Assembly: GCF_005405925.1 (NCBI RefSeq)
Contig: NZ_BJHV01000001.1
Coordinates: 5,394,001 to 5,458,000 of the forward strand
DNA: 64,000 nucleotides
Reading direction: 5' to 3'
Origin: Streptomyces antimycoticus
GTDB lineage: Bacteria; Actinomycetota; Actinomycetes; Streptomycetales; Streptomycetaceae
Part shown: in pieces, positions 10,624 to 33,211 of the stretch
Numbering within the stretch: the first letter of the stretch is position 1
Layout of the letters: each line of letters starts with the position of its first letter
Made by a program: the position numbers and the translations under genes
Notes under the pieces: generated by a model
What the model saw: only the letters and a program-made list of their open reading frames with translations
What the model was told of the DNA's origin: nothing
The model's database searches: none

Positions 10624-10678
10624 TTGTACACACCCTGTGGACAACGACTTGAACCGCGTACCCCGGCCTGACTACCGT
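10624..10678 (+). promoter_or_regulatory. dnaA promoter with paired DnaA boxes
   Basis: TTGTACACA (10624-10632, one mismatch) and TGTGGACAA (10636-10644, a perfect box on the minus strand) face each other with 3 bases between. Directly downstream lies TTGAAC (10649-10654), 18 bases, TACCGT (10673-10678). DnaA bound at the pair would abut the -35 element, which fits the known autoregulation of Streptomyces dnaA. Confidence 0.78.
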
Positions 10679-12620: not shown

Positions 12621-12650
12621 GAGGGGCCCGCAGGGCCACCGCGAACCGCT

Positions 12651-12690
12651 GAAGGGCGCCCCGGGAGGGACAACTCCCGGGGCGCCCTTC
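12651..12690 (+). terminator. dnaA terminator
   Basis: 17-base-pair perfect stem (GAAGGGCGCCCCGGGAG with its complement) and a 6-base loop, 30 bases past the stop. It separates dnaA transcription from oriC. Confidence 0.92.
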
Positions 12691-12737
12691 GTCGTTCACC
12701 CCTACGAGCTGTTCGATTCCCTGCCCGGCCGGCCCGG

Positions 12738-13300
12738 TTCTCCACAGATACGCGGCTCATCCACCGTCCACACCCTGGGGACGTGGAAGTTGTCCCGATC
12801 GCGTCCACAGGGTGTCCGATGGGGAAGGCATCCACCGAGGTCAGGTGGTTGTGGAATTGTGGCTATCGGGAGTCCACAGACTGTGGACGACCGAGATACC
12901 CACAGGCCGTGCATCAGCTTGTCCACCGGCAACCCACAGCCGAAGGCCCGTTGCCCACAGCTTCTCCACACCGCTGTCCACTGTTCGGCAACGAAATGGC
13001 CACGGTCACCGGCGCGAGTGAAAGGCGTCACACCAAGGAGGCGGGTTGGGCTGTGGGGAAGGTGGGTAAAACTGGGGACAGCGCTGGGGAGAACCAGGCG
13101 ATGTCTGTGCATCGCATGTGCAGAACTCTTCGGCATCCACAGACAACCCTGGTTGTCCACCGCCGTCACCCACAGGCCCGGTGGACAAAAAACCGCCGCT
13201 GACCAGGGCAAAGTCAGTTTTCCACGGTTTCCACAGGCCCTACTACTACGACCACAGAGTTATAGCGAGGAAATCGCTTCGAAGTGGGGCCTGTGCACAA
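12738..13300. other. oriC: Chromosomal origin of replication oriC
   Basis: The dnaA-dnaN gap (12621-13448) is packed with DnaA-box-like nonamers. Forward examples: 12738 TTCTCCACA, 12764 CCGTCCACA, 12801 GCGTCCACA, 12870 GAGTCCACA, 12919 TTGTCCACC, 12951 TTGCCCACA, 12962 TTCTCCACA, 12974 CTGTCCACT, 13133 GCATCCACA, 13153 TTGTCCACC, 13166 TCACCCACA, 13218 TTTTCCACG, 13227 GTTTCCACA. Reverse examples: 12850, 12882, 13052, 13180 (GGTGGACAA) and 13292 (TGTGCACAA). About 19 in all, as known for Streptomyces oriC. None is a perfect TTGTCCACA, whereas the dnaA promoter and 31.8 kb regions have perfect boxes. The short AT-richer stretch at 13241-13275 could help unwinding. Confidence 0.95.
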
Positions 13301-13448
13301 CCTCGGGCCGAGCCGCCCGACACCCCGCGCACCGACTTGACCCCGAGCCGCACCGACTGTCGGCGGCGTGCGTCAGACTGGTCTCCGGCTACTCAGCCGA
13401 CGACGAAGGCCAGCAGGGCGAGCCAGCAACAGCAGGAGGCGGCTTACG

Positions 13449-30728: not shown

Positions 30729-30772
30729 CCCCGCTTGTCCGTGTGAACAAGTGTCCGTGTGAACAAGCGGGG
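30729..30772 (+). terminator. ppiA terminator
   Basis: Stem CCCCGCTTGT / ACAAGCGGGG. The loop contains a direct repeat of GTCCGTGTGAACAAG. Confidence 0.75.
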
Positions 30773-30817
30773 CGGGGGAACGCCCGATCAGAAGTGGACA
30801 AGGGGCGAGGGGACATC

Positions 30818-31702
30818 ATGGAGGACCAGGCGGTCTGCTGCTATCGGCACCCCCAGCGGGAGACCGGCATCAGCTGCACCCGCTGTGAGCGCCCGATCTG
30901 CCCCGAGTGCATGATCAGCGCCTCTGTGGGGTTCCACTGCCCTGAGTGCGTGAGCGGACGGGTGCCGGCCGGGGCCGGGGCCTCGGCCGTCGGTCCCCCA
31001 CCGCGTGCCGCCCAGCCGCGCACCATGGCCGGCGGCACGATCACCTCGGATCCCCGGCTGATCACCAAGATCCTGGTCGCCATCAACATCGCGGTATGGC
31101 TCGCGGCGCTGTCCGCGGGCGACCGGCTGGTGAACGATCTCGACCTGGTCGGACGGGCCTACGACCCCGGCGCGGCGCAGATCGTCGGAGTCGCCGAGGG
31201 CCAGTGGTGGCGGCTGGTCACCTCGATCTTCCTTCACCAGCAGCTGATCCACATCGCCTTCAACATGCTCTCGCTGTGGTGGATCGGCGGGCCGCTGGAG
31301 GCCGCGCTCGGCCGCGTCCGCTTCATCGTGCTCTACATGCTGTCGGGGCTGGGCGGCAGCGCGCTGTCGTATCTCCTCGCCGCGCAGAACCAGCCGTCGC
31401 TGGGCGCCTCCGGCGCGATCTTCGGCCTGCTCGGCGCCACCGCCGTGCTGATGCGCCGGCTGAACTACGACATGCGGCCGGTCATCGCGCTGCTGGCGCT
31501 GAATCTGCTCTTCACCTTCACCTGGTCCGGAATCGCCTGGCAGGCCCATGTCGGCGGCCTGGTCGCGGGCACGGTGGTGGCGTATGGGATGGTGCACGCG
31601 CCCCGTGAGAAGCGGGCGCTGGTGCAGCGCGGGACCTGCGCCCTGGTGCTGCTCGCGATCGTCGCCATGGTGTGGATCCGGACGATCCAGCTCACCGGCT
31701 GA
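30818..31702 (+). CDS. Rhomboid family intramembrane serine protease
   Basis: 294 residues. The N-terminus (8-48) is a B-box-like zinc ribbon: CCYRHPQRETGISCTRC, CPECM, then FHCPEC, six or more Cys plus His. Rhomboid domain from about 85: six membrane helices with the WWR loop, catalytic Ser in GASGAIFGLLGA and His in AWQAHVGGLVAG. It cleaves membrane proteins within the bilayer; substrates are unknown. ATG at 30818. Zinc-ribbon rhomboids are common in actinobacteria and this locus is conserved. Confidence 0.93.
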   Translation: MEDQAVCCYRHPQRETGISCTRCERPICPECMISASVGFHCPECVSGRVPAGAGASAVGPPPRAAQPRTMAGGTITSDPRLITKILVAINIAVWLAALSAGDRLVNDLDLVGRAYDPGAAQIVGVAEGQWWRLVTSIFLHQQLIHIAFNMLSLWWIGGPLEAALGRVRFIVLYMLSGLGGSALSYLLAAQNQPSLGASGAIFGLLGATAVLMRRLNYDMRPVIALLALNLLFTFTWSGIAWQAHVGGLVAGTVVAYGMVHAPREKRALVQRGTCALVLLAIVAMVWIRTIQLTG

Positions 31703-31822
31703 GCGGGGCGGTCGGCCGGCGCTCGGCGGGCCGCCGCGGACGTGCTCCCGCAGGGCCGCTCGCAGGGCCGTGGACGGTTCCCGGCGATCTCCGGCGCATG
31801 GGGCCGAGCCGGGCTCGGTCAG

Positions 31823-32021
31823 TTGTCCACAGCAAATGGTGGATCATACGCAACCTGTGGAGAACCTGCGTACGACCCCCGGCTGACCTGCATTTTCGCA
31901 GGAAGACGGGGGTGTGAACGATCGAACAGACGCTCCTCGCCGGTCACACCGGCGTCAACACGGCAGAGGTTATCCACAGATCTTCTGAGTTTTCCCCGGC
32001 TGTGGATAACTCTGTGGACAA
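31823..32021. other. Second DnaA-box cluster, outside oriC
   Basis: The gap between convergent rhomboid and crgA genes (31703-32037, no gene) carries five DnaA boxes: TTGTCCACA 31823-31831 (perfect), TGTGGAGAA 31856-31864 (one mismatch), TTATCCACA 31970-31978 (perfect), TGTGGATAA 32001-32009 (perfect, reverse) and TGTGGACAA 32013-32021 (perfect, reverse). The last two are head-to-tail with 3 bases between. Because both neighbours end here, a promoter role is unlikely; DnaA titration, as with the D78/H69 clusters described in S. coelicolor, is the likely function. Confidence 0.85.
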
Positions 32022-32037
32022 CCTGGGGACAGCCGGG

Positions 32038-32295
32038 TCACTTCCACTGGGTGGAGACGACGAAGCCCGCGGCGATGAAGCCGAAGCCGACCACGATGTT
32101 CCAGTTGCCCAGCGACTCGACCGGCATATCACCCGTGGTCACGTAGAAGATGACGATCCACGCGAGGCCGATCAGGAACATGGCCAGCATCAGCGGTGCC
32201 ACCCACCGGCGGCCGCTGCTCAAGTTGATGCTGGCTGCCTGCTTCGCCGGCGGCGGCGTGAAGTCGTCCTTCTTGCGGATCCGTGACTTCGGCAC
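32038..32295 (-). CDS. crgA: Cell division protein CrgA
   Basis: 85 residues: [15 protein letters not shown], then two membrane helices ([22 protein letters not shown] and [18 protein letters not shown]) ending TQWK. CrgA is an actinobacterial divisome protein that coordinates FtsZ-ring formation during sporulation. GTG start at 32295 with AGGAGA upstream; a longer open frame upstream lacks support. It faces DUF881 divergently. Confidence 0.95.
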
Positions 32296-32440
32296 GAGGA
32301 ACTCTCCTGTCGATGCGCTGCGTGACCGCGCGGGGATGTGTACGGACGGCGCCGGGGCGGGACAGCGACGGGGACCACGTCCCTCCCCCACACGTCCGTT
32401 AGCGTAGTCCTTCCGCGGCGTCGTAAGGAGTAAGGGTACG

Positions 32441-33211
32441 TTGAGCAATTCCGCTGACTCCCCCACCCCGGCGTCCCGCCGCCCCCGGTTCCGGCCCGTG
32501 AGACTGCTGACCGGCGCGGTCTTCGCGCTGGCCGGAGTGATCTTCTGGACCAGTTTCAACACAGCCCAGGGCACCAATATCCGCAGCGATGAATCGATGC
32601 TGCGGCTCTCCGATCTCATCCAGGAACGCAGCCGTAAGAACGGCACCCTGGACGACAGCACCGGCAAAATACGCTCCGAGGTCGACGCACTCGCCCGGCG
32701 GGACAACGGCAGCACCCAGGCCGAGCGCCGCAAGCTGGCCGCGCTGGAGAAGACCGCCGGGACCAGGAAGCTCTCCGGAGCGGGCCTTACGGTCACCCTC
32801 ACCGACGCCCCGCCGAACGCCACCCCGCAGATCCCCGGCGTCCCGGATCCCCAGCCCAACGATCTCGTCATCCACCAGCAGGACCTGCAGGCCGTGGTCA
32901 ACGCGCTGTGGCAGGGCGGCGCCAAGGGGATCAAGGTCATGGATCAGCGGCTGATCTCCACCAGCGCGGTGCGCTGCGTCGGCAACACCCTGATCCTGCA
33001 GGGCCAGGTCTACTCCCCGCCCTACAAGGTCACCGCTGTGGGTGACCGGGGCAAGCTGAGCGCCGCCCTCACCGCCTCGCCCGCGATCCAGAACTACCGC
33101 AGCTATGTCGACGCGTACGGCCTCGGCTGGAAAGTCGACCAGCACGACACGGTGACTCTTCCCGGCTACTCCGGCACAGTGGATCTGCACCAGGCACAGC
33201 CCATCGGATAG
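32441..33211 (+). CDS. DUF881 family protein
   Basis: 256 residues. N-terminal membrane helix ([18 protein letters not shown]), coiled-coil region (about 55-115), then the DUF881 domain ([35 protein letters not shown], and [17 protein letters not shown]). It is a predicted exported single-pass protein found beside crgA and sortases in Streptomyces. It starts at TTG 32441 with TAAGGAG at 32424-32430. Function unknown; related Bacillus YlxW/YlxX proteins sit in division gene clusters. Confidence 0.88.

Follow-up and report, generated by a model that had tools for sequence, protein, structure and literature searches.

Conserved and helically phased DnaA boxes beside crgA: a candidate oriC-proximal control element in Streptomyces and other actinobacteria

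The means by which actinobacteria lower the activity of DnaA after each round of replication are, to our knowledge, poorly understood; as far as we know, they lack the Hda and SeqA proteins of E. coli. A locus in the 11.2-Mb genome of Streptomyces antimycoticus gives the question a concrete form. In the window, i.e., the whole stretch of 64,000 bp that was analysed (contig positions 5394001–5458000), five DnaA boxes, four of them perfect, are crowded into 199 bp about 18 kb from oriC. They lie inside the 335-bp gap between crgA and a rhomboid gene (Table 1). What do they do there? The first-pass annotation had pointed to these five boxes, and they are present at the places it gave. It had also described the gap as convergent and free of any expected promoter. 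This too is borne out: the two genes end towards each other, and simple scans of 31600–32500 revealed neither a promoter-like nor a terminator-like site. A search of 31500–32500 yielded no Rfam match.

Table 1. Features of the crgA gap and its surroundings (positions in the window)
Feature	Position	Strand	Remarks
DnaA box e (distal)	31823..31831	+	TTGTCCACA, perfect
Conserved block adjoining box e	31841..31852	+	GGATCATACGCA here; GGATCTTGTGCA in many other Streptomyces
Weaker DnaA box	31856..31864	-	TTCTCCACA, one mismatch; same place in 14/80 (best 80 of 504 relatives)
Conserved 17-mer, putative second-factor site	31943..31959	+	GTCACACCGGCGTCAAC
DnaA box d (middle)	31970..31978	+	TTATCCACA, then GATC
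Degenerate box c	31990..31998	+	TTTTCCCCG
DnaA box b	32001..32009	-	TTATCCACA; 31 bp from d
DnaA box a	32013..32021	-	TTGTCCACA; 43 bp from d
crgA, cell division protein	32038..32295	-	Pfam CrgA PF06781, E 3.3e-29; start set by homology
Rhomboid-family membrane protein, convergent neighbour	30743..31702	+	Pfam Rhomboid, E 2.2e-38
dnaA	10677–12620		
dnaA-dnaN gap (oriC)	12621..13445	.	8 boxes with at most 1 mismatch, 0 perfect TTRTCCACA; dnaN ORF from 13368, dnaN start provisional

Chance is the simplest answer, and it is ruled out by the counts in the window, in the whole genome and in shuffled sequence. The window contains eight perfect boxes (TTRTCCACA) where 0.22 are expected, and 2000 dinucleotide shuffles of the gap never produced more than one. 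The whole genome has 91, as opposed to 24 for the reversed control. Four of these 91 within 200 bp are found at this place only; the number of such clusters expected by a Poisson estimate is about 6e-8.

Some other boxes deserve mention. The second-densest cluster of perfect boxes in the genome, three in 299 bp (contig 5308248–5308546; L173:1749–2047), is flanked by pheA and serS and lies about 98 kb away, across oriC from crgA; it may be the counterpart of D78 of S. coelicolor. A pair of DnaA-like boxes, one of them perfect, precedes dnaA directly (10624–10644), as might be expected for dnaA autoregulation. Three one-mismatch boxes are found at the start of the rhomboid ORF (30742–30801). One genome of the Streptomycetaceae (G482) has 21 paired-box matches on two contigs, in sequences that look like repeats; the boxes might belong to a dispersed repeat. 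That the boxes of the gap are stronger matches than anything in oriC, as had been proposed, depends on the definition of a perfect box. It is correct for TTRTCCACA, which oriC lacks. It is not for TT(G/C)TCCACA, the perfect actinomycete box according to an excerpt of one review (PMC4285127), by which two boxes of oriC are perfect (TTCTCCACA, at 12738 and at 12962).

The boxes are conserved. Searching named genomes for crgA gave 504 confirmed relatives, the nearest of them in Streptomyces, of which the best 80 supplied 80 loci. The annotation had conceded that its reading would fall if the boxes were not conserved in related genomes; the comparison was made, and in these best 80 of 504 the middle box d is perfect (TTATCCACA) in 80/80. 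A perfect inverted TTRTCCACA lies 20–60 bp from d in 79/80, the exception (L055) having two one-mismatch boxes instead. The distal box e, TTNTCCACA, is at its place in 78/80, with TTRTCCACA in 76 of these; it is missing there in L018 and L073. The count of the inverted partner accepts any place between 20 and 60 bp from d, whereas boxes a and b were counted place by place. At the place of a (41–46 bp from d) the box is perfect in 54 of the best 80 of 504 and within one mismatch in 71; at that of b (29–33 bp from d) the numbers are 37 and 61, so that a is perfect more often than b. Both are within one mismatch in 56/80 and both perfect in 16/80. By these counts the spaced a-b pair is a kept feature, and the pair with 3 bases between its boxes at 32001–32021, singled out in the annotation, is real and conserved. 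In L018 (Streptomyces eurocidicus) the boxes are reversed in order and direction, yet still 147 and 43 bp apart; from this one assembly, the orientation of the element appears not to matter.

In the alignment of the gaps, d and e stand out with a constancy of about 90% or more per column, while the gap is otherwise much less conserved. Additional conserved blocks are the GATC after d (72 of the best 80), the 17-mer and the block beside e. In the window, box d runs directly into AGATCT (31978–31983), which is described as a 6-mer site for ATP-DnaA in E. coli (PMC4285127, in excerpt); among the best 80 of 504 relatives, AGATC stands beside d in 72, the full AGATCT in only 40. Of 392 Streptomyces genomes, 341 have the three-box geometry as such (331 of the 380 good ones), and none has its reversed control; the two-box form with GRTC occurred in 304 of 382. 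The exact patterns are thus missing in 51/392 and 78/382 genomes, respectively, partly owing to the limited gap ranges allowed.

The spacing of the boxes follows the turns of the helix. The distance between d and e is 145–149 bp in 61 of the 79 gaps that gave a value (the window included, the relatives being the best 80 of 504) and 156–159 bp in 15; 115, 136 and 170 bp occur once each. In 150 places among the matches listed, for which 129–159 bp were allowed, it is 146–150 bp in 126, 155–159 in 20, 135–138 in three and 143 in one, and none falls at 151–154, 144–145 or 139–142 bp. On one quick protein tree of 80 rows (the best 80 of 504), evaluated with a concave cost, the inferred changes in spacing comprise 18 of 1–3 bp, ten of 9–12 and one of 33, and none of 4–8 bp. 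The P values, 4e-5 and a Rayleigh P of 0.00086, come from crude nulls. The 20 loci of other genera that were compared likewise keep near whole turns, with a weaker tendency (R 0.53) and outliers such as 55, 88, 113 and 129 bp. That whole-turn changes are tolerated and part-turn changes are not argues for a folded complex and against a simple soaking-up of DnaA. A review, as far as excerpted, states the same tolerance of whole-turn but not part-turn changes for selected boxes of oriC (PMC4285127).

How far does the element extend beyond Streptomyces? At least two perfect boxes within 950 bp past crgA were seen in all 28 loci from 16 other genera of the Streptomycetaceae, drawn from 51 such genomes sampled. 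Their layout varies. Box e was not seen past crgA in the g6, g8, g9 and g19 loci, and the g14 locus has only two boxes in one direction, b or a being missing. What would correspond to box c reads TTATCCCCA in some of the other Streptomycetaceae. The two-box spacing pattern was met in 94/119 genomes of the order and in 26/61 of the family sample. A locus of family f2 (L208) has no box past crgA; its genome (G392) carries, about 26 kb away on the same contig (L171), a pair of same-direction boxes spaced as in Streptomyces.

In other families the core takes the form of a head-to-head pair, TCCMCA-N(1-3)-TGKGGA, which 38 of 51 loci have no more than 200 bp past crgA, with a gap of a single base in 33 of the 38. 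The other 149,719 bp of the same 51 loci, taken as control, contain two. Altogether 26 of 35 families outside the Streptomycetaceae have this core; 13 of the 51 loci lack it. A third box, a, precedes this pair; its distance from b is 13 bp in 28 of 33 outside loci and 12 bp in two, as against three hits in 988 control places. A blind search for the strict double box TCCMCANTGKGGAYAA found 49 sites in 48 of 148 class-level genomes, sampled evenly over groups rather than over phylogeny, and 48 of the 49 lie 25–256 bp past the crgA match; a single one is away from crgA. In the phylum outside the class, two of 181 genomes have it, both beside a crgA-like gene. This near-uniqueness bound to one locus is the strongest result of the analysis. 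The 11 Streptomyces of the class sample lack the strict double box; their box c looks decayed, and d is the strong inverted partner there. The arms of the class double box tend to be unlike at position 7, one TCCACA and one TCCCCA in 21 of 33, which suggests a pair of a strong and a weak box. Judged by its distribution, the core is older than the genus Streptomyces.

The element keeps close to oriC. For 20 of 26 genomes, two of them Streptomyces, a single contig gave the distance from dnaA to crgA without wrapping; it is 13–124 kb. The rhomboid gene was the neighbour in 14 of 20 ORFs scanned, which were taken from 20 of the 51 outside loci. In L158 the scanned neighbour ORF encodes an alpha/beta hydrolase, and the core is still present. 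In L246 palindrome (see below) and boxes lie at the end of the rhomboid gene, next to cyclophilin, with crgA about 41 kb off, if the contig is circular. Because of these two arrangements, the element seems to be tied to the oriC-side neighbourhood rather than strictly to crgA. Its distance past crgA is 25–256 bp outside the family and up to 669 bp within it.

The boxes are not alone. The 17-mer GTCACACCGGCGTCAAC, with up to three mismatches, occurs in 66 of 81 gaps (the window plus the best 80 of 504) and in 0 of 81 control stretches of the same loci. In many loci outside the Streptomycetaceae, box a is immediately preceded by a palindrome (consensus GAATNACACNNGTGTNATTC); with at most four of 16 positions differing, it is present in 34/49 loci and in 0/46 control stretches. 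The 17-mer, which in Streptomyces lies on the far side of box d, is a related-looking sequence. It may consist of direct repeats of the PhoP or MtrA type; the published MtrA motif is a direct repeat with a period of 11 bp, and the motif outside the Streptomycetaceae is a palindrome. Joined to TCCMCA, the palindrome was found in 19 of 148 genomes, with 13 sites by crgA and six elsewhere, as decided by comparison with the places of the crgA matches. Five of the six were inspected. One is L246; the other four precede nrdJ, the gene of class II ribonucleotide reductase. These four (L245, L247, L248, L249) combine the palindrome with a DnaA-like box, and in L245 and L248 lexA lies on the other side of it. 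ATCTAGT-like repeats adjoin the palindrome at the nrdJ sites and resemble NrdR boxes. A regulator shared by dNTP supply and the crgA element is possible.

That the gap is a control site outside oriC to which DnaA binds is well supported by its conservation, its near-uniqueness and its closeness to oriC. Beyond this, we consider it fairly probable that the crgA gap is an oriC-proximal DnaA control element, most likely of a datA-like, i.e., repressive kind. The binding of DnaA, the repressive sign and the second protein are what we infer from sequence. The gap would hold a cis element dedicated to this task, on which DnaA assembles into a nucleoprotein complex whose geometry is fixed. The same-direction boxes a and b, 12–13 bp apart, would be opposed by an inverted box. 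In other families this is c, mostly 10 bp further along; in Streptomyces it is the strong d, 31–33 bp from b, and there a fourth strong box, e, would sit on the same face of the helix some 14 turns away. Being close to oriC, the element would double soon after initiation. It would then collect DnaA, possibly help to inactivate it, and so keep re-initiation low. E. coli datA acts in this sense: it promotes hydrolysis of the ATP bound to DnaA, and its deletion leads to over-initiation. The palindrome beside the boxes probably binds a second protein. Some findings count against the datA-like reading. The orientation of the three-box core is closer to that of DARS, an activating site; the core is missing in a quarter of the outside loci (13/51), the strict pattern is limited to 48/148 class genomes and the two-box spacing to 26/61 genomes of the family, and box e is missing past crgA in g6, g8, g9 and g19, as is b or a in g14.

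Other explanations have to be weighed against it. That the cluster is a passive leftover, or a chance assembly carried along by slow change of synteny near oriC, is the one we hardly believe at all. The region around oriC is indeed syntenic, and rhomboid is the neighbour in 14 of 20 ORFs scanned, but d and e stay constant in a gap that is mostly poorly conserved, and the element survives in L158, where the scanned neighbour is not rhomboid. The conservation already contradicts this reading. It is very improbable, too, that we are looking at an RNA hairpin terminator with a stem that is similar to DnaA boxes by accident. The double box is an inverted repeat able to fold, many actinobacterial terminators have no U-run, and the arms agree slightly above expectation at positions 1–3 (24, 26 and 18 of 33, as opposed to 21.3, 23.4 and 15.2). 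At position 7, however, they differ above expectation (same in 12 of 33, 17 expected); positions 4–6, 8 and 9 are fixed by the search pattern. Moreover, neither a nor e has an arm to pair with in the class core, and the spacing follows helix turns. The hairpin was rejected on the arm comparison and on the terminator and Rfam scans reported above. It is also quite unlikely that DnaA blocks transcription at the 3' end of crgA, thereby stopping read-through between the convergent genes and tying crgA expression to DnaA. The linkage to crgA and the convergence of the genes would fit; the one strict double box found away from crgA in 148 genomes, the inverted boxes of L018 with their spacings intact, the L246 element that stays by the rhomboid gene and the widely varying distance past crgA do not.

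A DARS-like site is a more serious competitor, albeit an unlikely one. DARS sites stimulate the release of ADP from DnaA. Here, DnaA-ADP would assemble on the a-b-c core via head-to-head contacts and lose its ADP, which would raise DnaA-ATP. The gaps of DARS1 and DARS2 in E. coli K-12 both contain the triple (+)14(-)12(-); in reverse, this makes two same-direction boxes 12 bp apart and then an inverted box at 14, a topology identical to that of the class core with its mostly 13 and then 10 bp, and in both the geometry is kept. A review excerpt likewise describes a core of three boxes in which I points against II and III, and which is spaced alike at the two sites (PMC5742627). Yet the inverted box of our element is 10–12 bp away, not 14, and the element is oriC-proximal, while DARS sites are placed between oriC and terC (PMC5742627, same excerpt). 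Nor does topology decide the matter, since the stretch of E. coli datA that was scanned also has a head-to-head pair, 12 bp apart. Membership in DARS is ruled out by spacing and position. The annotation had offered DnaA titration or reactivation; of this, the control site outside oriC stands on good ground. Titration alone is insufficient, because it would not need phased spacing, and the likeness to a reactivating site ends with the topology. A bolder proposal, possible but in our eyes doubtful, is an ancestral actinobacterial DnaA switch: a helically phased machine that would change the nucleotide state of DnaA and be co-bound by the regulator of the palindrome TNACACNNGTGTNA. Since the same palindrome stands with a DnaA-like box upstream of nrdJ in four genomes, one regulator might tie initiation to dNTP supply.

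The datA-like, repressive element is the preferred reading. Strong boxes have stayed next to the same cell-division gene in widely differing actinobacteria, and the site is, for this reason, a good candidate for an intrinsic control over the frequency of chromosome replication. It can be found by position, just past crgA, is near-unique and has a defined layout; it can, therefore, be deleted, moved or footprinted in many species. Phasing and second motif make a specific mechanism testable that goes beyond boxes soaking up DnaA.

Among known sites, some clusters of Streptomyces itself come close to the element. A study of 2006 reportedly described the clusters H69, H24 and D78 of S. coelicolor, a single species, as DnaA affinity or titration sites. 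Clusters of this type are said to bind DnaA with an affinity above that of oriC and to change initiation when deleted or supplied in extra copies, and D78 is reported to hold down re-initiation. Going by the cosmid names, crgA is presumably on cosmid H69, and the H69 cluster may be this very locus in S. coelicolor (presumably SCO3854–SCO3855); the annotation, which named H69 as an analogue, may then have put the case too low. Like H69, H24 and D78, the crgA-gap element consists of several strong boxes outside oriC in the segment that flanks it; it differs in its fixed, phased architecture across the class and in its second conserved motif. In the open-licence literature, which leaves out most subscription papers, we found no account of a class-wide crgA-linked DnaA element, no Streptomyces DnaA ChIP-seq by title, and nothing on H69/D78, on DnaA boxes in the crgA gap or, among the papers listed, on DnaA-reactivating sites in actinobacteria or, of relevance, on the sequence of the palindrome.

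Excerpts of reviews ascribe the repression of untimely initiation to DnaA-box clusters in both S. coelicolor and B. subtilis (PMC4585315, PMC5742627, PMC10950094). With the B. subtilis clusters near oriC, the likeness is one of reported role, the repression of untimely initiation (PMC4585315, in excerpt). Like E. coli datA, the element is a cluster of boxes that lies outside genes and in the oriC-side part of the chromosome; its box layout is unlike that of datA, which, according to the excerpt of one review, needs an IHF site (PMC5742627). With DARS, it shares the topology of the three-box core, a(+) b(+) c(-), and departs from it in the core spacing (mostly 10/13 in the class core instead of 14/12) and in its place near oriC (13–124 kb from dnaA in 20 genomes) instead of at mid-replichore. 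The oriC-proximal position fits datA and the clusters of B. subtilis and S. coelicolor better, and a repressive role is, therefore, favoured.
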